A DNA stretch of 40,184 bases from positions 1 to 40,184 of IMG/VR virus record IMGVR_UViG_3300046791_000222; one strand, written 5' to 3'. The first letter of the stretch is position 1. Each line of letters begins with the position of its first letter. The notes under the pieces were generated by a model. It was not told the DNA's origin and searched no databases. It saw nothing but the letters and a program-made list of their open reading frames with translations. This DNA is from a virus. Position numbers and translations under genes: made by a program. Positions 8,607-27,798 of the stretch are shown here, one piece after another.

Positions 8607-9608
8607 TTACGGTGAGAGCAGGCGTCCCTGAAAGTAATCGCCGTTGCAGGTGAGCGCGCCAGCCCACGCGAGGATGCTGACCTCGGCGTCTTGGTTGATC
8701 GCGTAGCGCTTATTCGGCGACAGCGTCACCATGTCGCGCGCCGAGTGCGGACGCCACTTCAGGAACTTCGTATTGAGGAAGAGCGCGGTTTTCGCCGCGA
8801 GTCCCGTTCCCCAGCTGGAGGATGCGAAGTAGATGCCGCCATCGAGAACGACGTCAGCGTCCATGTACTTGATCGTGGGGAAGCCCAGCTGCGCCTTGCC
8901 CGGATCGGTGAAGCGCTGCTGCGCCTGCAGGCTCGCCATGTAGACGCCCCACATGAAGTTGTCCACGATGATCACGTTCGGGCGATCCTGACCGCGAACG
9001 AGGTTCGCCCAGACGTCGTTGAACGCGGCTTGGATCGTCGCGGGCGTCGCAGCTGCAGCCATCAGGCTGAAGTACGGACGCCAGAACGCCCAAGTCACGC
9101 GATCGATGCCACCGTAGATTCCGGTTGCCACGCGCCCGGTCGCGCCAGCTGCGGGGACTGCGGCGTTGATGCCCACGATCGCCTTGCCGCCAGCTGCGGT
9201 GCCGTCGTTGTAGAAACCGAATGAGAGGATGTTCGCCATGGTCGATTCGGCGACGGTGATTCGCGCGTCCAGCAGGTCGATGAACGCTTCCTTGCCCGAG
9301 TTCTGGAGTTCTTCCAGCCCCGAGATCACCACCGGGACTGCGGCCTGCTTCAGGTTGAAGCGCGCGCTGGAGATGACGTCTTGCGCGGCGACAGGCAGCA
9401 AATCGTAGCCGGAGTAGAAGCCGCCATTGCCGTTCTCGGCGAAGCTCAACTCCTCGAAAATCTCCGATCCACCCGAGATGGGCTTCACGTTGCCGTTCGC
9501 CTTGATGTAGGCGAGGCCAGCGTTGTTGTTGGTGACGTTGTCGCTGATCTGCTTGGTGCGCGACTCGATCGTCGTTGCCACTACATCGGTGACGGTTGGG
9601 AAAGCCAT
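8607..9608 (-). CDS. Major capsid protein (333 aa)
   Basis: 333 aa, ATG at 9608 with GGGAG 7 nt upstream. It follows terminase, portal and scaffold in canonical order and is the best-insulated gene in the operon (148-nt leader with hairpins, terminator behind). The N-terminus ATTIESRTKQISDNVTNNNAGLAYIK, a central FNDVWANLVRGQDRPNVIIVDNFMWGVY and the C-terminal KRYAINQDAEVSILAWAGALTCNGDYFQGRL fit a HK97-fold coat protein (E-loop region with GGSEIFEELSF, then P-domain strands). The assignment comes from gene order, size and these patterns. No cleavable delta domain is apparent; a separate scaffold gene is present. Confidence 0.9.
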   Translation of the reverse strand: MAFPTVTDVVATTIESRTKQISDNVTNNNAGLAYIKANGNVKPISGGSEIFEELSFAENGNGGFYSGYDLLPVAAQDVISSARFNLKQAAVPVVISGLEELQNSGKEAFIDLLDARITVAESTMANILSFGFYNDGTAAGGKAIVGINAAVPAAGATGRVATGIYGGIDRVTWAFWRPYFSLMAAAATPATIQAAFNDVWANLVRGQDRPNVIIVDNFMWGVYMASLQAQQRFTDPGKAQLGFPTIKYMDADVVLDGGIYFASSSWGTGLAAKTALFLNTKFLKWRPHSARDMVTLSPNKRYAINQDAEVSILAWAGALTCNGDYFQGRLLSP

Positions 9609-9755: not shown

Positions 9756-10910
9756 TTACGCCGCGCTCGTCAGCGTGTCAATCGACTGCAGGATCGCTTC
9801 GCGCACGCTCGCAGGTGCTGCGCTCGCATTTCGCGACGCGGGCGGCGCTGCTGCGCTCGGAACTGAAGAGGCCGCGTGACGCGCAGCAGCGAGGGTGCGC
9901 GCGGCAGCGCCCACGCTTCCCTGCGCCGCACGCGCGTCCAGCACCTTCTTCACCTCCGGCTCGATCTGGCAGGCGCGCGCGTAAGCATCGGCAAGGCCCA
10001 TCACGATCCCGCGCTTGGCAGCTGCGTCCATCACATCCGCCATCGTGCCGCGCACATCGGCGAAGAATTCGTTCTTCGCGTCGCCCGCGAATTCACTCAT
10101 CGCGTTCACCACCTGCTCGCGCTCCATGGCGGCGTTGCGCTCGAGGATTTGATCGACGCGCGGATCGCGGAATTGTTGAGCACCTGGCCCATTTGTATAC
10201 GCTTGCTGCGTATACGGTTGCTGTTGTTGCGGCTGCGGTCCACCACGGATTGCGGCAGCGAGGTAGGCATCGAGCGCGGCGAGCGGGATCTGGTACTGCT
10301 GGACGAGCGAGGCGACCATGCGTGCCTTGTCGGCGGGTGCGCCCGTGCGCAGCAGCGCTGCGGTCTTCAGGTAGTCGTGGAACGCGGCGAGCGGGTTTGC
10401 GCCCTCGGCTTCGATGAAGGCGCGATACGGCTCGCTCACCTGCCGGAATTCCTGCGCGAAGCGCCGCAGGCTCGCCGACTCCTGCATGCGCGCGTCGTTT
10501 TCCTTTTCGCGCCGGATGACTTCGCCCTGCACCTCGGCGGGCAGCGTCTTCCACTTCTCGCGCAAGTCGGCCTTCCACGACGCCGGGGCTTTCAGTTCCG
10601 CTGCAGCTGGCGCGGGAGCGGGTGCAGCTGCAGCGGGTTTCGGGGCGAGCGCCTTCTCCACCGGGGCGAAGAGGTCAGCCTGCTTGGGCTTGGCCTTCGC
10701 GGCTACAGGAGGAGCCTGCCCCGGCTGAACACCAGCGGGCGCGTCCTTGGAGGGCGCGGCTGCATCGCTCCCAGTGGGTGACGCTGCAGCTGGTGCTGCT
10801 ACAGGCGGGGCAGGCGTGGCGGGTGCTGCAGCTGGTGCAGCGGGGGTTTCGGTTGTGGTCAGCGTCTCCAGCGACTGCTCGATCGCTTCGCGGACAGTGG
10901 GGTCACTCAT
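9756..10910 (-). CDS. Capsid scaffolding protein (384 aa)
   Basis: 384 aa, ATG at 10910 in an ATGA overlap. Immediately upstream of the coat gene. The composition is typical of scaffolds: Ala/Pro-rich flexible N-terminal region (residues 20-125), a highly helical charged middle (LREKWKTLPAEVQGEVIRREKE and following), a Gln-rich linker, and a helical C-terminus. Unusually, the same helix is present at both ends: VREAIEQSLETLT at residues 6-18 and VREAILQSIDTLTS at the end, also alike at DNA level (about 30 of 36 bases). The C-terminal helix of phage scaffolds binds coat protein, so two copies may give two contacts. Confidence 0.85.
   Translation of the reverse strand: MSDPTVREAIEQSLETLTTTETPAAPAAAPATPAPPVAAPAAASPTGSDAAAPSKDAPAGVQPGQAPPVAAKAKPKQADLFAPVEKALAPKPAAAAPAPAPAAAELKAPASWKADLREKWKTLPAEVQGEVIRREKENDARMQESASLRRFAQEFRQVSEPYRAFIEAEGANPLAAFHDYLKTAALLRTGAPADKARMVASLVQQYQIPLAALDAYLAAAIRGGPQPQQQQPYTQQAYTNGPGAQQFRDPRVDQILERNAAMEREQVVNAMSEFAGDAKNEFFADVRGTMADVMDAAAKRGIVMGLADAYARACQIEPEVKKVLDARAAQGSVGAAARTLAAARHAASSVPSAAAPPASRNASAAPASVREAILQSIDTLTSAA
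10195..10215. repeat. GTATACG-N7-CGTATAC inverted repeat inside the scaffold gene
   Basis: GTATACG (10195-10201), 7-nt spacer, CGTATAC (10209-10215). The same arrangement occurs at 15911 and 27446. Here it encodes YTQQAYT, so it may be coincidental, but the spacing matches exactly. Confidence 0.5.
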
Positions 10911-11352: not shown

Positions 11353-11543
11353 CAGATCGGCGTCTCCACCGGAACGAGGTTCAGTTCAACCTCGACCAGC
11401 TGGTAGGCATACGGGATGTCCTTCTCCGCGCAGTGCGCGTTCAGGCAGCGCACCGGGCACCAGCTGCCGCGCGGGCGCTGGATGAGCAATTGCGAACCGC
11501 ACTCGCCGCACAACAGGCGCGGAGCGTCGGCGTAGGCCTTCAC
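11352..11543 (-). CDS. Small zinc-ribbon protein (63 aa)
   Basis: 63 aa from a GTG at 11543 (GTGA overlap with the portal stop). Cys pairs CGECG (residues 12-16) and CLNAHC (about 33-38) form a plausible zinc ribbon; the rest is short and acidic. Small zinc-ribbon proteins between portal and scaffold are common in phages but their job is unknown. Confidence 0.8.
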   Translation of the reverse strand: MKAYADAPRLLCGECGSQLLIQRPRGSWCPVRCLNAHCAEKDIPYAYQLVEVELNLVPVETPI

Positions 11544-13678
11544 TGCGGCATCCCCGGCAGGTTAGGCATCTTGGGCATCGCACTGGGCGGGCGCACGGGC
11601 GCTTGCGGGCCGGGGCGCGGTGCCGAGATCGCGCCACCCAATCCCGGAACACCGGGAGGAGCTTGCGGGGGCTGTGTGACCCCAGCGCCCATGGGCTGGC
11701 CTCCGGGTGCCGGGGGCGGTGCAGGCGGTGTCGCCGGATCGAACTGCGGCGGCAGCATCTGCGCGATCTGCATGGCGATCGGCAGCGGCACGCCGCCCTC
11801 GACCATCATCTTCAAAATCTCGGCCTGCTTTTTCTTTGCGTCGGCGTGCTGGTTCTGCGCTGCTGCCAAATCCTTCTTGTCCTGCGGCGTGGGCACGGGC
11901 GGGGGTTTGGGCTTCGCCATGTCGGCCTGCAGCGCGAGGATCGCCTGATCCAGCACGCCCTCGATCTGCTTGCCGCCCTTGAAGCCGCTCGCGACCCACT
12001 GCACGATCTTCAACATCGGGCCTGCGGTGCCGGGGAACTGCTGCACCATCGGGACCGAGGAGGAGATGAAGCCGCTCAAGCTCGCGAGGAAGTCCACGCG
12101 CTGGGCTTTCTCCAGCTGCCAATCGGGGGCTTGGATATTTTCCGCGCTGATCTTCACGCGCATCGCGACGGTGGGATCGTTCTTCAGAAGCTCGATCGCC
12201 TGTTGCGCGAACTGCGCATCGGGGGTCTTGTCGATCTGGCTCACCTGCATGATCGTGCTTGCCTGCCAGTGGCGGCAGATCACTTCGGCGCGCATCCTGT
12301 AGTTGTCGGTGACAAAGCGCGCGATCTCCTCGCCGCTCTTCTCCGATCGCGCGTTGCCGTACTGGGCTTTCAGGCGCTGCGTGGTTGCAGTTTCGCGCGA
12401 GCTAGCCATGCCGCGCTGGATGTCGCTGATCCCGAGAAGCTCAAAGACTTCCACGCTCAAGGTCTGCTTGCGCGCGGTCAGGTACTCCAGCGCCTTGACC
12501 ACCATTTCGAGCGGCATCCAATCGACCTGACCCTTGATGCCGCCCTTCTCGGCGAACATCGCCCAGTTATCGACCGGGATCAGCTGGTTCATCGCCGCCT
12601 GATTGAGCATCCTCTGCACGCCGTCGGCGGTCTTGTCATACACGCCCACCAGCTTGAGCGCCTCGGTCAGCATCGTGCAGCGGGAGGCGATGAGTTCCAG
12701 TTCTTCGTACTGCGATTTGGCGAACAGGTAATCGGGGCGCGGCAGGTAGGCGTTGGTGAGGTGCGTTGCCATGAGCGGACGGCGCACCGGGAAGAAGTCT
12801 TTCAGCTGCAGCGGGTCTTCCTTGGCGTCGAGGAGCGTGTCGTGGCCTGCGACGTACCAGTAGGCCCAGCGCGTGGTCAGGCACCAGATTTCCCAGACGT
12901 CGGCCTGATCCTCGGTCTGCGCACGCAGCGGGTCATCATCACGCAACGCGCGAGACGGTGCGCTTTTCAATGCGAGCGGAGCGTTCACGGCTTTTTCGCC
13001 GAAGCGCTTCATCAATTCCTGCTTGGTCATCGGGATGCGGCGCGCGACCCAGCGCTTATCCTGCCAGCGGCGGCACGGTGAGTAGAGAAAATCCTCCCAG
13101 CGGACGTAGTCGAGCGGGCAGCGCTCCTCGGTGATCACATCGATCGCGAGCGTCTGGCCCGTTTGCGGATCGATGACTCCCTCGATCGGCACGCTCTCGG
13201 AATTGAATTCATAGCGCGCCCAGCAAAGGCCGAGGCCCGCGACCATGCGATCGAGGATCGCGTCCTGAAAAATGTAGTACGGGCTATTTTCCAGATCATC
13301 GGATTCGTAGTTGAAGATGCGCTCAAGGATCAGCGCGGCGACGCGCGCGACATCGTCTGCCGGATCGAGGTTGGCGCGATCGACGCTCACCTTCGGGATT
13401 TGTCCGTACAGGGCTGACAGGGCGGTCTGGACGTTGGACCAAAACAGGGGAAATTCGCCCTTCACGCCCACGCCCGTCCTCTCGGCGTCGGCTTGCTGGA
13501 GGAGGAACTTCTTTTCGATCGAGCGCGCGAGGGTGTGCCACTTCTGGAACCAGCGCCGCGCGGTCTGCAGTTCGCGGGTCCAGTGTTCCGGCTCCATGTG
13601 TTCGTTGAGCAGTTCCTGCGGATCGTCCTCGCCTTCGGCAATCGGTGCGGCTGCAGCTGGTGCGCTATAGGAGTCCAT
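11540..13678 (-). CDS. Portal protein (712 aa)
   Basis: Start at ATG 13678, chosen over an in-frame upstream start because GAGGCGAG lies just before it; it overlaps the end of terL by 14 nt. The 712-aa length matches large portals of P22-type or BcepC6B-type podoviruses. Recognisable blocks are FPLFWSNVQTALSALYGQIPKVSVDR (clip/stem entry), a middle CPLDYVRWEDFLYSPCRRWQ, long helical C-terminal segments with LEVWE-like repeats (LFELLGISDIQRGMASSRETATTQRLKAQYG), and a Pro/Gly/Gln-rich tail ending NLPGMPQ. The SSRETATTQRLKAQYGNAR block is a characteristic portal signature. It forms the dodecameric DNA gate at the capsid vertex. Confidence 0.9.
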   Translation of the reverse strand: MDSYSAPAAAAPIAEGEDDPQELLNEHMEPEHWTRELQTARRWFQKWHTLARSIEKKFLLQQADAERTGVGVKGEFPLFWSNVQTALSALYGQIPKVSVDRANLDPADDVARVAALILERIFNYESDDLENSPYYIFQDAILDRMVAGLGLCWARYEFNSESVPIEGVIDPQTGQTLAIDVITEERCPLDYVRWEDFLYSPCRRWQDKRWVARRIPMTKQELMKRFGEKAVNAPLALKSAPSRALRDDDPLRAQTEDQADVWEIWCLTTRWAYWYVAGHDTLLDAKEDPLQLKDFFPVRRPLMATHLTNAYLPRPDYLFAKSQYEELELIASRCTMLTEALKLVGVYDKTADGVQRMLNQAAMNQLIPVDNWAMFAEKGGIKGQVDWMPLEMVVKALEYLTARKQTLSVEVFELLGISDIQRGMASSRETATTQRLKAQYGNARSEKSGEEIARFVTDNYRMRAEVICRHWQASTIMQVSQIDKTPDAQFAQQAIELLKNDPTVAMRVKISAENIQAPDWQLEKAQRVDFLASLSGFISSSVPMVQQFPGTAGPMLKIVQWVASGFKGGKQIEGVLDQAILALQADMAKPKPPPVPTPQDKKDLAAAQNQHADAKKKQAEILKMMVEGGVPLPIAMQIAQMLPPQFDPATPPAPPPAPGGQPMGAGVTQPPQAPPGVPGLGGAISAPRPGPQAPVRPPSAMPKMPNLPGMPQ

Positions 13679-15068
13679 CTCGCCTCGCGTCGTGGAGCAT
13701 CTCAAGTGAGAATGCGTAGTGCGGTGGGCCGATCTGCGGCTCAAGCTCCGCGACGATCGGCGTAGGGACGTCCTCCTTCAGGGCGACGCCGCAATAGGAG
13801 AAGGCATCGCCCGTGTGGCTGTGTTCGTTGTGATTCGGCTCGGCAGAAAAGGCGTGGCGCTCCTCGTCCCACTTGAACTGCCACTCGCGCAAGCTGATCA
13901 ATCCGCGTGCGCAGGATGCGCGATCGAATTCGGTTTTCCTCGCGAAGATGCGCGCGGCGTTGATCCGATCGGCGATCGTGGTGTGCGGGGTGACCCTGTA
14001 GCGCGCAGCAAGGCCGCTCTTCAGGAACATATCCACGACGGTGAGGTGCGAGCGGAAGGTCTTCGCGCGCGCATCGTGGGGAAGCCACAATGTGCCGACA
14101 GTCCAACCCCTTGCCTTCAGGCGCTCGATCCACTGCTCGGCATCGAGGCCAGAGTCTTCATCGTGATCGAGCATGCGATAGCCGCCGGGGCACGGTTGCA
14201 CCCACCACCATGCCGCAGCGTCGCGATAGCCGATGTCGCTGACCAGATGAATCTCTGCGCCAAACGGATCGAAGAGCGGCCCAGCCTTGATCCTGCCTTC
14301 GCGTTCAGCCGCCTCGATGTACTTGCCCAAGATCGATCCGACATTCGCAGCCGAGAAGTCGCACTCGTACTCCTGCCGATACAGTTCATCGGGCATGGTG
14401 CGGCGCTCTTCAGCCAGCACCGCCTCGTTGATCAACTTCGTCTGGCTCACCGGATGCGTTGCGCAGTACCACGCAGCCATTTCCTTGGCAGCTTCATGCA
14501 TGGAATGCGCGTGGTTGAATCCACGCGGCGTGGTGAGGAATAGCGCGGTGCCATCGTTCTCGGCAAGGATCGGTCGAACGAATTCGTAGGACTTGGGCGC
14601 GGTCAAGGCCCACTCGGAGAACGTAACGTGCTTCGGATTCGCGCCAACGAGCGAATCGAAATTGTCCGCACCGACGCAGCGCCACAGCGAACCGTTGACC
14701 AACTCCACCTTCATCTCGTCCTCATGGCGCTTCTTCACGATCGCTGCCGGGAACGCAATGTCGATCAGGCGCTTGCCGTCACCCGTGAGCGCATCCCAGA
14801 TCACCTTCCTCGCCTGCTTGTAGGAGGGGAGCGTGTGCCAGACCTCGCGCGGGCTACGCAGCATCTGCTCAAGCTCAATGAACATCGCCGCGCGATCCTT
14901 CCCGGCGCGACGGTGGGCGACAACGGAAGCACGCTTGCCGTCATCACGGAAATACCTGATCAACGGCTTTTGCCACTCGCGCGCTTTGAACGTGATCGCT
15001 ACCTCGCGCTCGCGCTGCGCCTGCTGCTCCTCCTGCTCGCGCAGCTGGGCCATCTCGGTGCGCGTCAT
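13665..15068 (-). CDS. terL: Terminase large subunit (467 aa)
   Basis: DNA-packaging ATPase/nuclease. Walker A variant AHRRAGKD at 51-58, Walker B VTFSE with Glu at 152, coupling motif TTP at 179-181, and RNase H-fold nuclease acids D278 (LVSDIGYRD), D332 (WLPHDARAK) and D421 (HTGDAFSY). Length is usual. The ATG at 15068 overlaps the stop of the upstream 117-aa ORF (ATGA) and has no clear SD, so translation is probably coupled. The packaging mode (cos, pac or terminal repeat) cannot be read from this. Confidence 0.95.
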   Translation of the reverse strand: MTRTEMAQLREQEEQQAQREREVAITFKAREWQKPLIRYFRDDGKRASVVAHRRAGKDRAAMFIELEQMLRSPREVWHTLPSYKQARKVIWDALTGDGKRLIDIAFPAAIVKKRHEDEMKVELVNGSLWRCVGADNFDSLVGANPKHVTFSEWALTAPKSYEFVRPILAENDGTALFLTTPRGFNHAHSMHEAAKEMAAWYCATHPVSQTKLINEAVLAEERRTMPDELYRQEYECDFSAANVGSILGKYIEAAEREGRIKAGPLFDPFGAEIHLVSDIGYRDAAAWWWVQPCPGGYRMLDHDEDSGLDAEQWIERLKARGWTVGTLWLPHDARAKTFRSHLTVVDMFLKSGLAARYRVTPHTTIADRINAARIFARKTEFDRASCARGLISLREWQFKWDEERHAFSAEPNHNEHSHTGDAFSYCGVALKEDVPTPIVAELEPQIGPPHYAFSLEMLHDARRDGLL

Positions 15069-15803: not shown

Positions 15804-15910
15804 TGCCTATCGCTGTACGGATGCACACCACATGTATGCGCGCACAGCGCCCGTGGGCGTGGGAGCCGCCGATCACACGCGCTGGTGTTCCATGTGAAAC
15901 AGTCATCGAT

Positions 15911-15933
15911 TGCATACGCTGCTCGCGTATACA
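15911..15933. promoter_or_regulatory. TGCATACG-N7-CGTATACA operator-like element
   Basis: Near-perfect 8-bp inverted repeat (one mismatch) with 7-nt spacer, 42 nt before the rightward HTH gene. The same element, perfect, is at 27446-27468 in the replication initiator gene. The right half-site supplies a TATACA that could act as a -10 for rightward transcription, but no matching -35 is visible. Confidence 0.55.
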
Positions 15934-15974
15934 CTTCGATGGATTTGCCCAACAAAACCAACACAGGGACTGTC

Positions 15975-16292
15975 ATGCCAAGTCAGAAATTCAAGCGTGC
16001 ATCTACGGCTCGCGCGAGAGGTGCGAGCTACCCGCAGGAGTTCAAGATCGCTGCCGTGCTGATGTCGCGCGATCCCGACATCGAGGTGCGCCACGTTGCG
16101 CGCGCCCTGCGCCTGCATCCGGTGATGCTGACCCAGTGGCGCTCGGCGCGCCGCAGCGTGTCCTCCAACGTCCTGCACGCGCTGGTGCGCCTTGGATCGA
16201 AGAAGCTCGCCGCCAAGCTCCAGCAGTGCGCCGAACAGGCGCTCGACCTGAAGGCCTGCAAGCGCCAGCTGAAGGGCAAGCGCCACGCCTAG
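15975..16292 (+). CDS. Transposase-type HTH protein, putative regulator (105 aa)
   Basis: I chose the ATG at 15975 (AGGGA upstream); an in-frame ATG at 15939 is possible. The 105-aa protein has YPQEFKIAAVLMSRDPDIEV then VRHVARALRLHPVMLTQWR, the HTH layout of IS3-type OrfA proteins (FK..AV...... ..VA..L.....L..W). There is no transposase catalytic partner, no inverted-repeat ends, and the C-terminus is short and basic. It stands alone next to the divergent late promoter, so a co-opted DNA-binding regulator is more likely than an insertion sequence. Confidence 0.75.
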   Translation: MPSQKFKRASTARARGASYPQEFKIAAVLMSRDPDIEVRHVARALRLHPVMLTQWRSARRSVSSNVLHALVRLGSKKLAAKLQQCAEQALDLKACKRQLKGKRHA

Positions 16293-16507
16293 CCCTACAC
16301 ACCGTGGGGCCTAATTGGCCTGTTGTCCTACACAGTTAAAGTGTTGTCGAGGTATTGACCGTAAGCCCTTGATATCCTCTTTTTGGGCATAGGCCCAGAT
16401 CGCGCCACGATCGCGCAGGAGCCGCGCTCGCCGATTTTGGCTACCCCTGCAAGGGTTGCAGTCCCTGCGTGGCACCAGCGCGAAATCGCCTTTTCGGATT
16501 TCGGCAC

Positions 16508-16516
16508 TTATCCACA
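16508..16516 (+). promoter_or_regulatory. DnaA box TTATCCACA
   Basis: Exact match to the DnaA consensus TTATNCACA. I found only this one copy, so it does not define an origin alone; by composition fewer than one such 9-mer is expected in the window. Confidence 0.5.
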
Positions 16517-16622
16517 GCCCTGTCCTACAAGATCAGTCCATTCCCCTGCGCACCGCAAGGCCTTTCCCCGGCTCCAGCTGCAGCTGCACCTCGGTCCCTG
16601 TACATATGGATGCCTCCGAAAT

Positions 16623-16640
16623 AGTTGCACACCTGCAACT
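16623..16640. promoter_or_regulatory. Palindrome AGTTGCA-CACC-TGCAACT
   Basis: Perfect 7-bp inverted repeat with a 4-nt spacer, overlapping the -35 (TTGCAC) of the putative rightward promoter. Probable operator half of a two-operator control site. Confidence 0.6.
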
Positions 16641-16654
16641 GTTTCTGTTACGCT
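16625..16654 (+). promoter_or_regulatory. Putative promoter of the PP-loop/DpdA cluster
   Basis: TTGCAC (16625-16630), 18-nt spacer, TACGCT (16649-16654). A moderate sigma70 match. Both hexamers lie inside palindromes (16623-16640 and 16645-16665), as expected for a tightly regulated promoter. Confidence 0.45.
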
Positions 16655-16665
16655 ACGCGTAACAG
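16645..16665. promoter_or_regulatory. Palindrome CTGTTACGC-TAC-GCGTAACAG
   Basis: Perfect 9-bp inverted repeat with a 3-nt spacer, 15 bp before the first 16-nt leader. It is the best simple operator in the window. The regulator is unknown; candidates are the HTH proteins encoded at 15975 and 21177. Confidence 0.65.
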
Positions 16666-16680
16666 CCCACCCACGCACGC

Positions 16681-16696
16681 CCAACTTACCTTGGAG
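16681..16696 (+). repeat. Start-associated leader, copy 1
   Basis: CCAACTTACCTTGGAG, ending 6 nt before the ATG at 16703. Contains the SD (GGAG) and a CCAA/TTGG inverted repeat that could pair and partly hide it. Confidence 0.9.
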
Positions 16697-16702
16697 CAGC
16701 AG

Positions 16703-17665
16703 ATGCAAACCAGCACCCCGGAACTCAACGCGATCGCAGCCGCAGTGCGGCAGATCGGCTCGCCCCTGTACGTCGCCCTCGGCATGGGCGTCGATTCGGT
16801 CGCCGTCCTCGTCGGCCTCGCGCAGCGCGGCGAGCGGCCCGACGCGATCGTGTTCGCCAACACGGGCGACGAGAAGCCCGAGACGTATGCCTACATCGAC
16901 ACGCTCAATGCGTGGCTCGATCGCGTCGGCTTCCCGCGCGTCACGATCGTGAAGAACCCGCGCCCGAAGTCGGGCGACGTCTCGCTCTCCGAATCCTGCT
17001 TGCGCAACGGCGTGCTGCCAGCCCTCGCCTACAAGGCCCACCAGTGCAGCTTGGTGTGGAAGATCGACCCGCAGGAGAAGTGGATCGCCCAGTGGGCGCT
17101 CGCGATCGAGGCGCGTGCAGCTGGCGCGCAGATCACTGTGTGCGTTGGCTACGATGCTGGCGATCGCGACAGCGCACGCTGCGCTCGCGCCAAGAGCGAA
17201 GGTCGCCAGATTCCCGGCACCGTCAACCGCTACCCGCTGATCGAGTGGGGCTGGGATCGCGAGGAGTGCATGCGCCAGATCGCAGCCGCTGGCCTGCCCG
17301 TGCCGATGAAGAGCGCGTGCTACCACTGCCCCGCGTCCAAGCCCGTCGAGATCGTGTGGCTGAAGACCATGCACCGCGACCTCTTCGATCGCGCTGTCGA
17401 GATGGAGCGCGGCGCGCATGCACGCGGCCTCGTCTCGATCGCAGGGCTTGCCGACATGGGCAACGAGACGTTCGCCCAGTATGACGACGGCAAGGAGTAT
17501 CTGGGCAAGCTCTTCCTCGCCGAGTTCCGCCCGTGGAAGTCGCTCCACGCCAAGCTCAAGCGCGCACAGAAGGATGGCTACACCCAAAAGGCGATCGCGA
17601 TCCAGAAACTGATCGACGCCCGCCGCCCCGCATTCGTCGCAGCGCGTGACGCGCTGTACGCATAG
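16703..17665 (+). CDS. PP-loop ATPase, PAPS reductase-like (320 aa)
   Basis: The ATG at 16703 is set by the conserved leader and fixed 6-nt spacing. The P-loop variant is ALGMGVDSVAVLVGL (GMGVDS at 27-32, in place of SGGxDS). Then come IVFANTGDEKPET (50-61), HQCSLVWKIDPQEKW (113-127), and RYPLIEWGWDREEC with PMKSACYHCPASKP (about 176-214). This is the layout of phage PAPS reductase-like PP-loop proteins, which share adenylating chemistry with DndC, QueC and TtcA enzymes. Six or more Cys residues, including CYHC, could hold a metal or Fe-S cluster. It leads the cluster with the DpdA-like gene. True sulfate reduction is unlikely in a phage; nucleobase or nucleic-acid modification is my inference. 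Confidence 0.85.
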   Translation: MQTSTPELNAIAAAVRQIGSPLYVALGMGVDSVAVLVGLAQRGERPDAIVFANTGDEKPETYAYIDTLNAWLDRVGFPRVTIVKNPRPKSGDVSLSESCLRNGVLPALAYKAHQCSLVWKIDPQEKWIAQWALAIEARAAGAQITVCVGYDAGDRDSARCARAKSEGRQIPGTVNRYPLIEWGWDREECMRQIAAAGLPVPMKSACYHCPASKPVEIVWLKTMHRDLFDRAVEMERGAHARGLVSIAGLADMGNETFAQYDDGKEYLGKLFLAEFRPWKSLHAKLKRAQKDGYTQKAIAIQKLIDARRPAFVAARDALYA

Positions 17666-17677
17666 AGCAGCACCCAC

Positions 17678-17693
17678 CCAACTTACCTTGGAG
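17678..17693 (+). repeat. Start-associated leader, copy 2
   Basis: Identical 16-mer, 6 nt before the ATG at 17700. Confidence 0.9.
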
Positions 17694-17699
17694 ATCACC

Positions 17700-18293
17700 A
17701 TGAAAACGAAGACCACCACGATGAAAGAAGCCAAGAACATCCTCGTCCCGTTCAGGATGACGATCCGCAAGAAGTATGGCGAGTATCGCGTCAACTTCGC
17801 CGATGGCAGCAAGTGGAACACCAGCGAGACGACGGCCTACTACACCACCGACATCGACGACGCGATCTCGACCGCGCAGGTGATGCGTGGGCAGCGCACG
17901 CGCAACGAGTACCTCGCCAAGAACCCGCTGGCACTCACCGCACCAGCCGAGCCGCTGTACTGGCATGAGGTGCAGCTGATGCGCACCTCGATCCCGCACT
18001 GGATCGCCGCGTACCGGATCGCCAAGATCGCCGCCGATCAGTCCGCACTCGCCCAGAGCGCGCGCGCCAACATGGCGAACGCGATGAAGCAGCTGGTCAC
18101 GATCGGCGACAAGCTCACCGCCGACCTGATGCCCGGCTGCACGACGATCGCGGCGCTCGTTGGCAAGCACGCGGACCATGGATACCGCCCGACGCTGCGC
18201 GCCGACGCAGGACGCGCCTACGCGCTCCTCGCCGATGTCTATGACTTCTATGCCGAGGCCCATGGCCTTGAGGTGCGCGCCTATCGCGGATAG
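17700..18293 (+). CDS. Unknown protein of the modification cluster (197 aa)
   Basis: ATG at 17700 placed by the leader. The 197-aa soluble protein begins with a Lys/Thr-rich segment, then a short beta region (KKYGEYRVNFADGSKWNT) and a long helical body (RTSIPHWIAAYRIAKIAADQ and NMANAMKQLVTIGDKLTADL). No catalytic motif or family is recognised. Same leader and orientation as the PP-loop gene 35 nt upstream, so co-expressed with it. Confidence 0.8.
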   Translation: MKTKTTTMKEAKNILVPFRMTIRKKYGEYRVNFADGSKWNTSETTAYYTTDIDDAISTAQVMRGQRTRNEYLAKNPLALTAPAEPLYWHEVQLMRTSIPHWIAAYRIAKIAADQSALAQSARANMANAMKQLVTIGDKLTADLMPGCTTIAALVGKHADHGYRPTLRADAGRAYALLADVYDFYAEAHGLEVRAYRG

Positions 18294-18352
18294 CCCATTG
18301 CAGAGGGCGATCACAACGCCCTCGACAATGCGCTCGTCGCAGATCACCCAAC

Positions 18353-18368
18353 CCAACTTACCTTGGAG
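18353..18368 (+). repeat. Start-associated leader, copy 3
   Basis: Identical 16-mer, 6 nt before a GTG start at 18375; the spacing rule selects this start over a TTG at 18363. Confidence 0.9.
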
Positions 18369-18374
18369 AACACA

Positions 18375-18860
18375 GTGAAACAGACCAGCATCAAGATCGT
18401 ATCCGCCGCAAAGCAAGCCGCCCTCGCACAGCTGAACACCGCACGCGCCGCCGATGGCCTGCCCCCGCTCAAGCGCGTCACCAACATCTGGTGGGCGATC
18501 CATGGCGAAGCGTGCATCCGCAACGTCGAGCGCTCGATCGCCAAGCCCGTGAGCGCGGTGACGCGCATCAACAAGGCCCTCAAGGCGCTGGGCCGCGAGG
18601 AGCGCCTCGTTCGCGGTCGTGGCTACTACTACCTCATCGAGGGCGAGTCGAGCAGCTTCTACACCAGCAGCATCTACACGATGTGGATCGAGCCGAAGGA
18701 TTTCGCCTTCGCCGCGAGCGAAGTCAACGACATGTTCCGCCGCGCCGGGATCGAGGCGCGCATCGAAATCCCGCAGGCCGACATCGACCTCGATGTGCAG
18801 AACCGCGCCATCATCATGCGCGAGATCGCCGCCGACAAGGCACGCAAGGGGGCCAAGTGA
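18375..18860 (+). CDS. Unknown protein coupled to DpdA (161 aa)
   Basis: GTG start at 18375, 161 aa, stop overlapping the DpdA start (GTGA), so the two are translated together. The N-terminal helical part (VSAAKQAALAQLNTARAA) precedes a segment ALKALGREERLVRGRGYYYLIEG that looks like the recognition helix and wing of a winged-helix fold, followed by an acidic/helical end. A partner or DNA-targeting subunit for the transglycosylase is possible but only inferred. Confidence 0.8.
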   Translation: MKQTSIKIVSAAKQAALAQLNTARAADGLPPLKRVTNIWWAIHGEACIRNVERSIAKPVSAVTRINKALKALGREERLVRGRGYYYLIEGESSSFYTSSIYTMWIEPKDFAFAASEVNDMFRRAGIEARIEIPQADIDLDVQNRAIIMREIAADKARKGAK

Positions 18861-19603
18861 ACTTCTTCCCCGGCCTGCACCAGCCCTGCGATGCGCAGCA
18901 CTTCGATCGCGCCTTCATCAGCGTCAATCGGCTGCGCGATCGCAAGGCCGACTTCGTCGTCAACGATTGGATCATGGACTCAGGCGCGTTCTCAACGATC
19001 GCCACGCATGGCTACTACCCGGAGGAGCCGCAGGTGTACGCCGCGCAGATCAAGCGCTGGAGCCGCTGTGGCAACCTCCTCGCGGCAGCTGCGCAGGATT
19101 TCATGTGCGAGGACGAGCAGCTGATCCGCACGGGCGCAGGCCTGCGCCACGGCGTCGCCATCCATCAGGGCTTCACCGTGTCGCGCTACATCGATCTGCG
19201 CATGGCGATGGACGCGATCAACTGCCCGACGTACATCCTCCCGGTCCTGCAGGGCCGCACGATCGGCGACTACATCCGCCACATCAAGATGTACGAGGAG
19301 CTTGGCTACCTGCCGCACGGCGCGTGGGTGGGCGTCGGATCGGTGTGCAAGAGGAATGCCGAAGTCACCTCGATCTGGATGGTGCTGTCCGAAATCCTCG
19401 ACTACCGCCCAGACCTGAAGCTGCACGGCTTCGGAGTCAAGACCACCTCCCTGCAGGAGTGGCGCATCAACGAACTGCTGCACACCGCCGACTCGATGGC
19501 GTGGAGCTACGCTGCCCGCCGCGAGGGCAGGAATCAAAACGATTGGCGCGAGGCGAAGGCCTTCGGCGATCGCATGACGCAGTACATCAACGCATCAGCA
19601 TGA
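18857..19603 (+). CDS. dpdA: DpdA-like 7-deazaguanine DNA transglycosylase (248 aa)
   Basis: Resembles phage DpdA proteins, relatives of tRNA-guanine transglycosylase that swap guanine in DNA for a 7-deazaguanine such as preQ0. Visible TGT-fold signatures: DSGAFS (41-46, general acid Asp), AQDFMCED (79-86), ILPVLQGRTIGDYIRHI (127-143), AWVGVGSVCKR (156-166), LHGFGVKTTS (189-198) and TADSMAWSYAAR (210-221, candidate nucleophile D212). No zinc-binding C-terminal domain, as usual for the short phage forms. GTG start in a GTGA overlap. No queC, queD, queE or folE gene is present, so the base would come from the host. Assigned from motifs, not from a database comparison. Confidence 0.75.
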   Translation: MNFFPGLHQPCDAQHFDRAFISVNRLRDRKADFVVNDWIMDSGAFSTIATHGYYPEEPQVYAAQIKRWSRCGNLLAAAAQDFMCEDEQLIRTGAGLRHGVAIHQGFTVSRYIDLRMAMDAINCPTYILPVLQGRTIGDYIRHIKMYEELGYLPHGAWVGVGSVCKRNAEVTSIWMVLSEILDYRPDLKLHGFGVKTTSLQEWRINELLHTADSMAWSYAARREGRNQNDWREAKAFGDRMTQYINASA

Positions 19604-19607
19604 CCCA

Positions 19608-19623
19608 CCAACTTACCTTGGAG
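19608..19623 (+). repeat. Start-associated leader, copy 4
   Basis: Identical 16-mer, 6 nt before the ATG at 19630. Confidence 0.9.
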
Positions 19624-19629
19624 ACAACG

Positions 19630-20160
19630 ATGAACACGCAAGCATTCCTGAAAGACCTGACCAAGCGCCTGCCCGTGATCGAGCAGGGCATCCGCGATGT
19701 GAAGAACAAGCGCGATCGCGAATCGCTCGCGGGCTGGATCGAGATCATGCGATCGCAGGTGAGGAACCTCCTGTCGCACGGCGACACGCAAATCGAGCCA
19801 GAAGGCGCGACGATCAAGCAGGATCGCGCTGGCGCGACGCCACGCCACACACCGGGACCGTGGTTCTGGCACGGCGAGACGCTGCGCACGCGCGCCGCCA
19901 TGGGGCGCGACGCACACTGGAACGGCTGGATCGTGCGCTTCGGTGCGAACGAGGTGGGCCAGTGGGCCGTCGCCGAGGACAACCGCGCGCTGATCGCGGC
20001 TGCGCCCCAGCTGCACGCCGCACTGCGCGCGCTCGTCGCGATCGCCACGCCGCTCACCGTGCCGATGGGCGATGGCCCCGATCCGTTCCCCGCCGAGTTC
20101 GCACCCGCAGTCGAAGACGCGCGCGCCCTTCTGGGCATGCTCGATGCACCGAAGTCCTAA
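19630..20160 (+). CDS. Phage 'HTPGPW' family protein (176 aa)
   Basis: 176 aa from the leader-defined ATG. The N-terminal 70 residues are helical. The C-terminal half has RHTPGPWFWHGETLR, then NRALIAAAPQLHAALRALV, a pattern found in very many phage accessory proteins with no known function. It was probably joined here from another protein, since that module usually stands alone. The product ends with an acidic helix. Confidence 0.8.
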   Translation: MNTQAFLKDLTKRLPVIEQGIRDVKNKRDRESLAGWIEIMRSQVRNLLSHGDTQIEPEGATIKQDRAGATPRHTPGPWFWHGETLRTRAAMGRDAHWNGWIVRFGANEVGQWAVAEDNRALIAAAPQLHAALRALVAIATPLTVPMGDGPDPFPAEFAPAVEDARALLGMLDAPKS

Positions 20161-20176
20161 CCAACTTACCTTGGAG
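20161..20176 (+). repeat. Start-associated leader, copy 5
   Basis: Identical 16-mer beginning at the base after the previous stop codon, 6 nt before a GTG at 20183. Confidence 0.9.
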
Positions 20177-20182
20177 ATCACA

Positions 20183-21049
20183 GTGAAAAAACTACAGACC
20201 CAGACCCAGCTTCAATCGATCAACGCGATCATCGGATCGCTCGAAATGGCGCGCGAGGAAGCGCTCAACCTGCCCTGCACCGCAGGCAAATACGTCGTCT
20301 ACCTCGCCGACGACGCGCTGCCGTTTCGCACCCGCCGGGGCGAGATCGCGCTCGTAGGCGACGCGATCTTCCTCGCCGACAAGGCGCTCGCGGCGAACGT
20401 CGCCGCCAAGCTCCAGCTGGAGATGGACAAGGCCAACACCGCCGACAAGGGCAAGCGCGTGAAGAGCGCGCCGATCCTTGAGTGGGCGCAGCTGCGCACG
20501 CAGCACCTCACCCCGCTCATCAACGATTGGAAGGAGCAGCTGTTCCAGCTGGGCCGCGAAGCCGCAGCTGCAGCTGGGCCGAAGACGCTCGCCCCGGAGC
20601 GCGTCAAGCAAATCCACGACAACGTGCGCCGCATCGCGCTGGAGAAGTCGATCGTGCGCGCCCTGATCGCGCACATGGGCCGCGCTGGCTGGAGCGTGTT
20701 CCGCATCAACGACGGCGAGGAGTTGACCTACCCCAAGACGATCACCGAGGCGCTCGATCTCATCTTCAACCTCGATGAGGCGTCCCTGCGCTTCGTCCCG
20801 ACGAACAAGCTCCCCACGGGCAAGCGCGCGCAGCAGACGCGCCACCTGACCGCGCGCCATGAACACGGCGTGCTGCTCATCCTCGGCGAGGGCGCAGACT
20901 GCATCAACGATTGGAACTACTCGGATGGCGACGCCGATGGCTTCAACAAGGCGATGGACGCCTTCGATGTCGAGCGCGTAGCCAAGCCCCGCGTGTCGAA
21001 GGCCGATCTCGATGCAGCCGTCCAGCGCATCGCGTCGAGGGGATTCTGA
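20183..21049 (+). CDS. Unknown protein, last of the leader-tagged genes (288 aa)
   Basis: GTG at 20183 placed by the leader, 288 aa. Mostly helical with a Lys/Ala-rich middle, including an Ala run after LFQLGRE. The C-terminal part INDGEELTYPKTITEALDLIFNLDEASLRFV followed by GVLLILGEGADCINDWN looks globular. No family recognised. Ends in a TGATG overlap with a small membrane gene. Confidence 0.8.
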   Translation: MKKLQTQTQLQSINAIIGSLEMAREEALNLPCTAGKYVVYLADDALPFRTRRGEIALVGDAIFLADKALAANVAAKLQLEMDKANTADKGKRVKSAPILEWAQLRTQHLTPLINDWKEQLFQLGREAAAAAGPKTLAPERVKQIHDNVRRIALEKSIVRALIAHMGRAGWSVFRINDGEELTYPKTITEALDLIFNLDEASLRFVPTNKLPTGKRAQQTRHLTARHEHGVLLILGEGADCINDWNYSDGDADGFNKAMDAFDVERVAKPRVSKADLDAAVQRIASRGF

Positions 21050-21180
21050 TGAAGGCGCGACTCGTCGTGTTCGCGATCTTCATCGTGCTGTGCCTGCTCG
21101 CGATCGTGTTCCCGCCGATGCTGCTCGCAGCAGGCGTGCTGGCAATGTTCATCATTGACGAAGGTGGAGAACCGCTATGA
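21049..21180 (+). CDS. Small two-helix membrane protein (43 aa)
   Basis: 43 aa, ATG at 21049. LVVFAIFIVLCLLAIVF and MLLAAGVLAMFII form two hydrophobic helices separated by PP, with a basic start and acidic end (EGGEPL). Overlaps both neighbours (TGATG, ATGA). Could be a holin-type or superinfection-exclusion protein; it lies with early genes, which favours the latter. Confidence 0.75.
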   Translation: MKARLVVFAIFIVLCLLAIVFPPMLLAAGVLAMFIIDEGGEPL

Positions 21181-21398
21181 CCGCAACACAATTCAAGAAG
21201 TGGCAGAAACGCATGGGCTGGAGCGCCGCCGAGGCCGCGCGTGAGCTTCGCTGCAGCACGCGGCAGGTGAGCTACTACCGCAACGGCAAGACTGCGGTCA
21301 CGCCCCAGCTGCAGCTGCTCTGTGAGCTTGTCGCCGATCGGCACGCGGCCCAGCTGCAGCAGGAGATGGACCAGCGGCTCACCGGGAGCGCCAAGTGA
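21177..21398 (+). CDS. Cro/XRE-type HTH protein (73 aa)
   Basis: 73 aa. SAAEAARELRCSTRQVSYYRNGKTAVTPQ (residues 16-44) is a typical XRE/Cro HTH (helix 2 AAEAARELR, recognition helix STRQVSYYRNG). No C-terminal oligomerisation or LexA-type domain, so a Cro-like or cluster-specific regulator. Coupled to both neighbours by ATGA and GTGA overlaps. Confidence 0.8.
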   Translation: MTATQFKKWQKRMGWSAAEAARELRCSTRQVSYYRNGKTAVTPQLQLLCELVADRHAAQLQQEMDQRLTGSAK

Positions 21399-21691
21399 AG
21401 GGCGGCTGGCAGTGGAAGGCCCTGCGCCGGGGCACCTATGGCGGGGTGGACGTCGTGGGCTTCAAGGATGCGCCAGCGTCGAGCGTGCTGGCGGGCCAGA
21501 CCCTGCGCCACTTCATCGACAACTTCCCCGATGAGGCCGCAGCCCGCGCCGCCCACCCCGATGTCGCCGAGTGCTGGGACAGCAAGTTCACCGGGCCACA
21601 GGTGAGCGTGGCGCACCTGCCCGGCGAGGACGATCAGGAACCGGGCGGTGCGTGGCCCGACGACATCGGCGGGCGCGAGGAGGACTACTAG
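21395..21691 (+). CDS. Unknown acidic protein (98 aa)
   Basis: 98 aa from a GTG at 21395 (GTGA overlap). Contains GQTLRHFIDNFPDEAAARAAHP and a strongly acidic C-terminus (GEDDQEPGGAWPDD, REEDY). Last gene before the operon terminator. No family recognised. Confidence 0.75.
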   Translation: MKGGWQWKALRRGTYGGVDVVGFKDAPASSVLAGQTLRHFIDNFPDEAAARAAHPDVAECWDSKFTGPQVSVAHLPGEDDQEPGGAWPDDIGGREEDY

Positions 21692-21727
21692 CGCCGGATC
21701 GCTCCTGCGCGATCGTGGCAAGACCTG

Positions 21728-21754
21728 ACCCCGCTTCGGCGGGGTTTTTCTTTT
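21728..21754 (+). terminator. Terminator of the 16-21.7 kb operon
   Basis: ACCCCGC-TTCG-GCGGGGT followed by TTTTCTTTT: a 7-bp stem with a UUCG tetraloop and U-tract, 36 nt after the last stop. Confidence 0.95.
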
Positions 21755-21760
21755 CTGGCG

Positions 21761-22201
21761 CTACTGGAGCGGAACGAGCGGGGCGCGAACGCCACTGGTG
21801 ACCTTGTGCCCGTGCCTGCGGCTGACGGTCTTGCCGCGCGAGGTCGCGCGCTTGGGCTTGGCATGCGCGATCCTGACAGGCGGCACCTTGAGCGTGTACT
21901 CCCCCGGCGCGAACCCGGCTCCGCGATCGAAGCTCACAAGCTCGCGCGAGATGCCCTCGGGAACCTTGTAGCGCGTCGCGACCTCGCCCCTGATCAGGTA
22001 GGCCGACTGCATCGAGATGATGCAGCCATCGAGGTTGAGCTTCTTCTTGCACGCCTCGGCGACGACGCACGCGCTGTGATCCTTTTTCTGACCGATCCGC
22101 GCATCGGTCTTGGTGATCTCGATCGCGAGATCGCGCTTGGCTTTCACGACGCGCATCACGCTGGGGAAGCGGGTCTGGACGATGGACAGCGAAGTAGGCA
22201 T
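21761..22201 (-). CDS. Conserved phage protein of unknown function (146 aa)
   Basis: 146 aa, ATG at 22201 with AGGAG 6 nt upstream. Contains RVVKAKRDLAIEITKTDARIGQKKDHSACVVAEAC, SMQSAYLIRGEVATRYKVPEGI and VSFDRGAGFAPGEYTLK, with a basic tail. I recall similar small proteins in other phages but no function. It lies beyond the int terminator, so it needs its own promoter, which I cannot identify in the 138-nt gap. Confidence 0.8.
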   Translation of the reverse strand: MPTSLSIVQTRFPSVMRVVKAKRDLAIEITKTDARIGQKKDHSACVVAEACKKKLNLDGCIISMQSAYLIRGEVATRYKVPEGISRELVSFDRGAGFAPGEYTLKVPPVRIAHAKPKRATSRGKTVSRRHGHKVTSGVRAPLVPLQ

Positions 22202-22273
22202 GGCAAGCTCCTATGGGGGTTGGCGCATTGCGAAGGCGCAACGCGGGGGAAAAGCCTACACCCGGTCACGGGC

Positions 22274-22300
22274 AAAAAAAAGCCCCGGTCAGGCCGGGGC
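22274..22300 (-). terminator. Terminator downstream of int
   Basis: On the minus strand GCCCCGG-CCTGA-CCGGGGC followed by eight T. A second GC hairpin, CCCCGG/CCGGGG, stands at 22306-22324 between it and the int stop. Confidence 0.9.
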
Positions 22301-22339
22301 GAAGACCCCGGCTGGAAACCGGGGGAGGGGATGCTCAGT

Positions 22340-23695
22340 CTACGCCGCGATCTTGGCGAGGTTCAAGTTGCGCAGATCGTAGCCGTTGCGGCTCGCCTCG
22401 GAGCGCGCCTCCTCGATGAAGGTGATGTAGAAGGCGTAGGTCACCGCCGGATCGTCGTGCCCCATGATCTCTGCCAGCTGCACGACGTCCATCCCGGCCT
22501 TGATCATCATCGAGGCGAAGGTGTGGCGGTTCTGGTACGGGCGGCGGTAGGTCACCCCCGCCGACTTGCACCTGCGCTTCCAGATGATCCCGTAGTTGCG
22601 CGCGATGTAGGCGTGCGGCGTGCCGTCCTTCCTCGGGAAGACGAAGTTGTTCTTGCGCTCCACGCCAGCCGCCATGACGCGCTTGAGGCGCTCGCGCAGG
22701 ATCGCTTCCACCGGGCCGATCATCGGGATGCGGCGGATCGCCTTGGGCGTCTTGCCCTTGCCCATCTTGCCGTCGCTCCACGCCTGCGTGACGCGGATGC
22801 AGCTGGTGTAGCCGTCCTTGTCATCGGTGTCCAAGTACACCGAGTTCCACTCCAGCGCGAAGATTTCGCTCGGGCGCATCCCGGTGTACCACCACACCTC
22901 CAGCAGTTCAGCGACGTCCACCTTGCCCTTGGCGCGCAGGTGCGCGAGGAACTTCGCGCGCTCGGTTGCGGTGTAGGGGTTGGGCTTGTAGCCCGTGTCC
23001 TTGCGATCCTTGTGCCAGAACGCAGTGACCATCGGCTTCAACTTCAGGTTGGTCATCGGATTGGCGAAGCCCTTCAACTTCTCCGAGTCGAGGATCGCGA
23101 AGTCGATCGCGTTGCGCAGCGGCGTGAGGACGCACCCGAGGGAAGTCGCCGACAATTTCGTTTCCTTCGCGAGGTGCTTGACGAAGTTGCGCACGCTCTC
23201 GATGCTGATGTCGGCGGCGCTCTTGCCCGTCCAGTACGGCAGGATGTAGTCATCGATGTAGCGCTTGCTGTTCACGACCGAGACGTCCTCGACCTTGGTG
23301 GGCCGATCGGCGAGCCAATCGGCGAGCAGCACATCAACCTTCAGCGCGCCCGTGTCGATCTCGCCCTTGCCGCGAAACCACTCGGCACGCGGCGAGCCGC
23401 TGAAGAATTCGTTGTACTGCTTGGCGTCCAGCGTGCCGCCCACCTGCGATTGCTTGTCGCCGATCGCACCGAGGCGCGCGAGGCACTTGTCCTTCGCGTT
23501 GTTCGCATCGGCCTTGTTGTCGGCGGTGAGGTTCCACTCCTCGCACTCGCGCCCACCGTTCATAAACCGGATCGCGAACGTCGTGCCCTTCTTCCCGGCC
23601 TTGACGCGAATGCCGCAGCCGCGCTCGATCGGCACGCCGTGTACGTTCCAGATGCCCGTCTTCTCGTCCCGCTTCACTTCTGTCCTTGTAGCCAC
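22340..23695 (-). CDS. int: Tyrosine integrase (451 aa)
   Basis: Site-specific recombinase for lysogenic integration. An AP2-like N-terminal arm-binding region (GTTFAIRFMNGGRECEEW) precedes a core-binding domain and the catalytic domain: TGMRPSEIF (R274), a Lys-rich strand MGKGKTPKAIRRIP, YQNRHTFAS (R390), MGHDDPAVTYAFY with H413 and nucleophile probably Y423. The usual box II His (HxxR) is replaced by Tyr (YxxR), a tolerated variant in some families. The start overlaps the xis end by 22 nt. No attP core is identified; the gap between xis and 23.98 kb and the 138 bp after int are the places to look. Confidence 0.95.
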   Translation of the reverse strand: MATRTEVKRDEKTGIWNVHGVPIERGCGIRVKAGKKGTTFAIRFMNGGRECEEWNLTADNKADANNAKDKCLARLGAIGDKQSQVGGTLDAKQYNEFFSGSPRAEWFRGKGEIDTGALKVDVLLADWLADRPTKVEDVSVVNSKRYIDDYILPYWTGKSAADISIESVRNFVKHLAKETKLSATSLGCVLTPLRNAIDFAILDSEKLKGFANPMTNLKLKPMVTAFWHKDRKDTGYKPNPYTATERAKFLAHLRAKGKVDVAELLEVWWYTGMRPSEIFALEWNSVYLDTDDKDGYTSCIRVTQAWSDGKMGKGKTPKAIRRIPMIGPVEAILRERLKRVMAAGVERKNNFVFPRKDGTPHAYIARNYGIIWKRRCKSAGVTYRRPYQNRHTFASMMIKAGMDVVQLAEIMGHDDPAVTYAFYITFIEEARSEASRNGYDLRNLNLAKIAA

Positions 23696-26967: not shown

Positions 26968-27798
26968 ATGACTTGGATGAAGATCGAGTGGTCGCTGCCC
27001 GACAAGCCCGAGGTCGCGGCGATCGCCAAGCACTGCGACATCGCGCAAGACAGCGCGCTGGGCAAATTGATCCGCGTCTTCGCTTGGTACAACGAGGTGC
27101 TGACGCTGGTGAACAAGCGCGTTGTCGTCAGCAAGGACGCTGTCAACAAGATCGCGGCAAATCGCAACTTCGCCGACGCGATGCTTGCAGTGGGCTGGCT
27201 GATCGAGCGCGGCGACGAACTGGAAGTCGCGAAATTCGCCGTCCACAACGGCGCGATCGCGAAGGTGCGCGCCCAGACCTATTTGCGGATCGCCAAGCGC
27301 AGAACGGCGAGCGTATACACAAAATCCCCTGTTCTTATACCTACACCTACTACTACTAATTCAACTACTAAAGACAACTGCACTTCGCAGGAAGCGTGCC
27401 AACACGATTTGTATACGCAAGGGGAGAAAAACGCCGATGGCGATGTGTATACGCACGGAGCGTATACAGAACACATCGCGCCGGAGTGGCTCCCGATGCA
27501 GGCGTGGGAGGCCTTCATCGAGATGCGCCGCCGACTCGGCAAGCCGATGACCGCCTACGCGCAGGAGCTTGCCGTTGCCAAGCTCGGACGGCTGCGCGCC
27601 TACGGTCACGATCCGCAGATGGTGCTGGAGCAGTCGATCGCGGGCAGCTGGACGGGCCTGTACGAGATCAAGCCCGAGAAGGGCAACGGCGCAGCTGCAG
27701 CTGCAGGCGGATTTGCAGAGCGCGACTACAGCGTGGGAGCGAGCAATGTCGATGAAATCCCTTGGTTCCGAGACGGCGATGGGTCTAAAAAAACTTGA
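26968..27798 (+). CDS. Phage replication initiator (276 aa)
   Basis: ATG at 26968 (or 26977), neither with a good SD. The N-terminal 105 residues (MKIEWSLPDKPEVAAIAKHC, KLIRVFAWYNEV, AVGWLIERGDELEVAKFAVHNGAIAK) form an HTH-type DNA-binding domain as in lambda O/DnaT-like initiators. Residues 110-165 are a Thr/Ser-rich, AT-rich-coded linker, and the C-terminus (AQELAVAKLGRLRAYGHDP then VLEQSIAGSWTGLYEIK) is the partner-binding module seen in such proteins. The linker DNA carries repeated GTATACG sites, as in lambda O where the origin lies in the gene. Overlaps the helicase loader gene by 53 nt. Confidence 0.8.
   Translation: MTWMKIEWSLPDKPEVAAIAKHCDIAQDSALGKLIRVFAWYNEVLTLVNKRVVVSKDAVNKIAANRNFADAMLAVGWLIERGDELEVAKFAVHNGAIAKVRAQTYLRIAKRRTASVYTKSPVLIPTPTTTNSTTKDNCTSQEACQHDLYTQGEKNADGDVYTHGAYTEHIAPEWLPMQAWEAFIEMRRRLGKPMTAYAQELAVAKLGRLRAYGHDPQMVLEQSIAGSWTGLYEIKPEKGNGAAAAAGGFAERDYSVGASNVDEIPWFRDGDGSKKT
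27305..27470. other. Candidate replication origin inside the initiator gene
   Basis: CGTATAC half-sites at 27312-27318 and 27461-27467, GTATACG at 27411-27417 and 27447-27453; the last pair forms an 8-bp palindrome TGTATACG-N7-CGTATACA (27446-27468). Between the first two is the most AT-rich stretch of the early region (about 27317-27420). Iterons beside an AT-rich stretch within the initiator gene match the lambda-type origin plan. Confidence 0.6.

Follow-up and report, generated by a model that had tools for sequence, protein, structure and literature searches.

We analyzed the IMG/VR virus record IMGVR_UViG_3300046791_000222 over its whole length (40,184 bases, 64% GC; hereafter, the window). 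Five genes of its early operon are each preceded by a perfect copy of a 16-nt leader, CCAACTTACCTTGGAG, and we consider it reasonably probable that this leader is a start-associated sequence (SAS), that is, a standardized leader for translation initiation that recurs along a single polycistronic early mRNA. The copies are identical throughout, stand at one exact distance from free-standing starts of a single operon, and lie where structure around the start is low. We infer that the leader recruits ribosomes for translation, that selection maintains it, and that a single transcript spans the region between approximately 16.67 and 21.75 kb. The operon is a very clean case for asking what SAS do, a question dating from 2011: it combines one short presumed mRNA, five identical leaders, and four coupled starts.

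The leader and its copies

An exact scan of both strands of the whole record found the leader on the plus strand at 16681..16696, 17678..17693, 18353..18368, 19608..19623, and 20161..20176, and nowhere else, in agreement with the positions, spacing, and copy number originally predicted from the letters alone. No further match appeared in the window even with up to three mismatches (0.05 expected by shuffles), and five matches were reached in none of the shuffles; the five-copy leader is confirmed as real and is not a product of chance. The spacer between leader and start codon is exactly 6 nt in all five cases: CAGCAG before ATG 16703 (copy 1, identical in the relative G001/L019, IMGVR_UViG_3300046714_000096), ATCACC before ATG 17700, AACACA before GTG 18375, ACAACG before ATG 19630, and ATCACA before GTG 20183, which matches the three ATG and two GTG starts of the original prediction. 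A check for copies inside coding regions returned none; all five lie between predicted genes. The gaps before the genes of copies 2–5 measure 34, 81, 26, and 22 nt, and the last of these, which follows the upstream TAA, consists entirely of leader and spacer. All copies share one orientation and are confined to the early operon, the structural half of the genome carrying none.

The left edge of this identity is sharp, with a pairwise identity in the upstream flank (−52 to −35 from the start) of 0.23, which equals background. Downstream, likeness extends moderately into the spacer (identity 0.42, P = 0.03 versus control starts) and the 12 nt immediately following the start (0.43, P = 0.0015 versus control starts), both A/C-rich, and leader-bearing starts are followed by A-rich codons. 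An ACCCAC motif had been noted ahead of most copies; this holds loosely, but likeness over the 12 nt upstream of the leaders is not significant (P = 0.14). The leader itself holds GGAG at Shine–Dalgarno (SD) distance, and 12 perfectly conserved bases lie 5′ of GGAG, beyond the reach of 16S rRNA pairing.

The operon (16703–21691) consists of nine rightward genes, g1, g2, g3, g3b, and g4 to g8. The leader was present at all five free-standing starts (16703, 17700, 18375, 19630, and 20183) and at none of the four starts that overlap an upstream stop (Fisher p = 0.008), namely those of g3b (18857, GTGA), g6 (21049, TGATG), g7 (21177, ATGA), and g8 (21395, GTGA), each with a different SD of its own. 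A scan of 16250–22350 for sigma-70-like promoters found none, and the gaps at copies 2, 4, and 5 (22–34 nt) are too short to hold an intergenic promoter as well. The leader would thus mark the points along a single presumed mRNA at which translation has to begin anew.

A probable role in translation initiation and competing explanations

The CCAA/TTGG inverted repeat described in the original prediction is present within the leader, though weak. Its stem reaches −2.2 kcal/mol alone, folding of the leaders in a 47-nt context was not significantly better than that of shuffles, and the pairing probability of the stem in a 120-nt context ranged from 0.07 to 0.98. Opening the region from −18 to +10 cost 4.8–9.3 kcal/mol at the five leader starts, compared with a median of 12.4 kcal/mol at 47 other starts (Mann–Whitney 1e-4), and none of the 47 fell below the median of the five. 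The earlier proposal that the stem hides the SD is thus not supported, since the stem is weak and the starts behind the leaders open more readily than almost any others in the genome, and we rejected an occluding hairpin as the main mechanism on the same grounds. The low opening cost speaks for an open, efficient start, not a hidden one, although part of it is due to lower GC. Searching Rfam with E values up to 1 gave no match at the leaders, and thus no known riboswitch or RNA family.

In the mechanism that we favor, the 16-nt leader and its A/C-rich 6-nt spacer would stand before each gene needing its own ribosome recruitment. GGAG would act as the SD element at an optimal distance, and the upstream CCAACTTACCTT arm, which is A/C/U-rich and forms at most a weak stem, probably aids docking of 30S/S1. 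Where a start overlaps the stop of the preceding gene, translational coupling would make the leader dispensable. Selection may keep the copies identical, perhaps with recombination among them contributing. Several observations weigh against an SAS of this kind. The SD is only GGAG (four pairs), and good initiation needs no 12 fixed bases upstream of it; the perfect identity exceeds that of an ordinary strong ribosome-binding site (RBS) and therefore leaves room for a specific binder. Elsewhere in the phage, 44 predicted genes lack the leader, 29 of them free-standing (gene calls being approximate). Copy 1 is less open than the other copies (9.3 kcal/mol), and the lower GC of the leader regions (0.41–0.54 versus 0.59) contributes to their openness.

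A specific binder would make the 16-mer the target of a trans-acting regulator, through which all five cistrons would be switched jointly at the translational level; this could be an RNA-binding protein of the phage, a small RNA, or a protein that recognizes the CCAA-N6-TTGG dyad. We regard this as rather unlikely. It would account for conservation reaching 12 bases upstream of the SD, for half-sites CCAA and TTGG lying 10 bp apart centre to centre, and for a stem that covers the GG of the SD and pairs to a context-dependent degree, and the same operon encodes a small helix-turn-helix (HTH) protein. A regulator of SAS was left open as an option by Pope et al. (PMC3203893), and for cluster K mycobacteriophages there has been speculation about a DUF3310 protein (PMC11373665). 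However, the idea of one regulator for all copies, advanced in the original prediction, gained no candidate RNA or protein. The plus strand of the window held no exact antisense match of 9–12 nt (the minus-strand matches listed are the copies themselves), so that an antisense RNA encoded in the window was rejected, and neither DUF3310 nor a known RNA-binding family occurred among the proteins scanned. Furthermore, the hairpin is weak and no better than shuffles, and four genes on the same mRNA directly escape such control.

In lambdoid phages, short homology at gene borders has been described as allowing gene swaps, and the leader could likewise be a boundary sequence for shuffling, at which single genes are exchanged while the RBS is kept. 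The copies do lie exactly at the borders of non-homologous genes, copy 5 fills its intergenic gap, and early regions differ entirely in relatives with a related portal. Nevertheless, we find this improbable: a 16-nt stretch offers little length for homologous recombination, overlapping borders, which are also swappable, carry no leader, no relative with a rearranged gene order was found, and the exact spacing to the start is left unexplained. The perfect copies and the similar spacers of copies 2, 3, and 5 would also agree with the recent spread of a functionless short sequence that is still undiverged, an explanation to which we give very little weight, as the flanks resemble one another no more than background up to the very edge, the copies occur solely at starts, always with the same orientation and distance and within a single operon, and copy 1 is unchanged in G001. 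Perfect identity had originally been ascribed to selection or to recent cassette duplication; a perfect 16-mer between flanks at background supports selection over the copying of long stretches. Duplication of gene cassettes is not supported, the five genes matching different families. Stoperators, DNA sites at which a bound repressor halts transcription, are known from cluster A mycobacteriophages, and the leaders resemble them in being oriented, intergenic, and repeated. It is nonetheless hardly credible that the leaders act in this way: stoperators need neither a fixed start distance nor overlap with an SD, and the likely operators here have other sequences, namely the palindromes TGTATACGC-N5-GCGTATACA and the two that lie ahead of g1.

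Genes of the operon, relatives, and the rest of the genome

The leader-bearing genes are g1 (16703..17665), a PAPS reductase-like gene (Pfam PF01507, 6e-5; phrog_424, 2e-28); g2 (17700..18293; phrog_7884, 1.5e-6); g3 (18375..18860; phrog_9154, 2e-7); g4 (19630..20160; phrog_1273, 2.7e-7); and g5 (20183..21049; phrog_4158, 6e-13), which has distant relatives in L017/L018 and in Pseudomonas phages. The genes without a leader are g3b (18857..19603), whose GTGA overlaps the g3 stop and whose product resembles the 7-deazaguanine DNA transglycosylase DpdA (PF23859, 1.7e-38; phrog_1279, 4e-58); g6 (21049..21180), a short hydrophobic open reading frame overlapping the g5 stop through TGATG; g7 (21177..21398, ATGA overlap), encoding the small, Cro-like HTH protein (HTH_31, 8e-5, below the curated cut-off); and g8 (21395..21691, GTGA overlap). 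The term modification cluster, used in the original prediction, fits only in part: g1 is PAPS reductase-like, the other four leader-bearing genes (g2, g3, g4, and g5) have no known function, and, as the DpdA-like gene stands without a leader of its own, the leader is tied only loosely to DNA modification. The operon likely ends at an intrinsic-terminator-like hairpin with a T-rich tail after g8 (21727..21746, plus strand). Upstream of copy 1, at 16624..16665, lie two palindromes, GTTGCA-N4-TGCAAC (16624–16639) and CTGTTACGC-N3-GCGTAACAG (16645–16665), both perfect and identical in G001 and likely to represent the promoter/operator of the early operon. Separately, the 9-mer AACGATTGG occurs five times (18962, 19538, 20522, 20906, and 31423) and encodes Asn-Asp-Trp in early-region proteins, which may be coincidence or a DNA motif.

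The relative G001, whose portal is 96% identical, is the only public contig covering the region; it ends inside g1 and keeps copy 1 within an identical block of approximately 118 nt that comprises the two palindromes, the leader, and the first g1 codons, and the sequence further upstream has diverged. The search of related phages thus recovered copy 1 in the one relative that reaches into the region. More distant relatives, with a related portal (67–68% identity or lower across most of its length) and a similar terminase, included none with the same early genes, and relatives of the PAPS reductase and DpdA had no repeated leader of CCAACTTACCTTGGAG sequence. Nine other exact 16-mer matches in viral contigs, none with a start at 6 nt in matching context, were taken as chance, and short-query blastn against named phages returned chance matches only. 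In 84,980 bacterial and archaeal species, CAACTTACCTTGGAG-N4-8-RTG gave 30 single matches and no multi-copy genome, which we estimate to be not above chance, and CCAACNNNCCTTGGAG in viral contigs gave 95 stretches, with no repeated leaders among those kept. The start-positioned 14-mer had 23 matches in viral contigs, compared with approximately 22 estimated from the 16-mer density. The leader is therefore not a widespread element.

Only one contig, L162 (IMGVR_UViG_3300036770_003210), from an unrelated, uncultured phage, had two of these 14-mer matches: AACTTACCTTGGAG, a 14-nt core identical to that of the window leader, stands there before two free-standing starts, within a duplicated leader ACTGTC-N-GACAGTAACTTACCTTGGAG (6237–6290 and 7011–7065). 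In contrast to the window, this leader is fused to an upstream palindrome, ACTGTC-N-GACAGT, its spacer is 7–8 nt, and the proteins show no detectable similarity. A few percent of phage contigs carry paired leader repeats (11 of 234 loci had at least one pair sharing at least 13 nt), and because of this and the chance-level total of 23 matches, we rate the L162 match as suggestive only and perhaps due to chance. That AACTTACCTTGGAG is a mobile ‘start code’ common to unrelated phages (the window and L162), with a dedicated factor of phage or host recognizing it and favoring marked free-standing cistrons over coupled ones, strikes us as improbable. We also considered TTG within the leader as the true start, as TTG GAG NNN NNN RTG keeps the reading frame at every copy, and rejected it: this TTG has no SD, and the frame is lost in L162. 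A contig with a PAPS reductase relative (L118, 6584–11400) contains five repeats of approximately 110 nt that have the core GTAGACGACAGCC in common, as well as a leader ahead of the ATG of the following gene; they look like a promoter plus leader and differ from the window leader.

Outside the operon, structural genes lie on the minus strand (major head protein, 8607–9608; portal, 11540–13744; terminase, 13665–15068), as does a tyrosine integrase after the early operon (22340–23695). Adjoining the integrase, 22274–22326 weakly resembles the Rfam family Burkholderia RNA 7 (anti-hemB), with a score under the gathering threshold, and may be just a terminator. The palindromic site TGTATACGC-N5-GCGTATACA is repeated at 10194–10216, 15933, 27319, 27410, and 27446–27468, with six TGTATACGC half-sites over both strands against 0.1 expected; these sites, located in the divergent region at approximately 15.9 kb, at 27.3–27.5 kb, and once inside a structural gene, are likely operators of a phage repressor. 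Additionally, TGCAGCTG and CTGCAGCTGG are strongly over-represented (63 versus 11 and 22 versus 1.4 expected; both strands, coding and non-coding), and 15885–16292 and 31880–32215 encode two small proteins with HTH_Tnp_1 (PF01527), an HTH domain of transposase type, and no transposase core, perhaps domesticated regulators.

Comparison with known start-associated sequences

The SAS of cluster K mycobacteriophages is GGGATAGGAGCCC, in 11–19 copies (PMC3203893), and the parallel to it drawn in the original prediction is supported. In both, a short SD-bearing repeat with a weak outer dyad stands a few nucleotides before non-structural starts, in one orientation, and is conserved beyond the SD. The sequences are unrelated: CCAACTTACCTTGGAG does not fall within two mismatches of GGGATAGGAGCCC (the 13-mer scan covered Oscar only). 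Spacing in cluster K is 3–7 nt as opposed to exactly 6 nt, gaps there are mostly above 50 nt as opposed to 22–81 nt (copies 2–5), and the window has its leaders in one operon only, with two GTG among five starts. The 17-bp inverted repeats of the extended SAS, a promoter found at approximately half of the cluster K sites, cannot fit the 22–34 nt gaps at copies 2, 4, and 5, none of which is preceded by one, and copy 1 has different palindromes. In the stretch read of mycobacteriophage Oscar, the SAS occurred at 12 of 32 free-standing starts and 0 of 27 overlapping starts (Fisher 2e-4). The rule shared by the window and Oscar, a leader only where translation starts afresh, speaks for a part in translation initiation rather than in transcription. 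Oscar gene 44, which is DpdA-like, has a perfect match to the cluster K SAS 3 nt upstream of its start codon, ATG (L159, 19976–19991).

Microbacterium cluster EF phages have ten near-identical copies of the SAS GGGAAAGGACCCC (PMC7302621), which resemble the window leader in RBS position, near-identity, and a sequence specific to the phage group, whereas the sequence differs and is tied to an upstream conserved element (ESAS). Citrobacter phage Mordin has a 26-bp repeat, CCAACAATCCTAAACTGGAGAATCTA, called ‘reminiscent’ of SAS (PMC4611695). Its core, CCTAAACTGGAG, lies ahead of most of the genes in a single early array (L161), an architecture close to that of the window. The Mordin repeat, which comes from a phage of a Gram-negative host, is start-associated like the window leader, begins with CCAAC, has CCT, and contains TGGAG before an A-rich spacer, but it is longer, AT-rich, and variable in its upstream part and belongs to another phage group, and the partial similarity may be chance. 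As in SAS generally, the window leader overlaps the SD within approximately 3–9 nt of starts, is conserved beyond it, keeps to one orientation and to non-structural genes, and avoids overlapping starts. The window leader is most likely an SAS by its mode of working, is not a cluster K SAS by sequence, and would extend this kind of element to a phage group, probably podovirus-like, that is unrelated to the actinobacterial phages of the first description.

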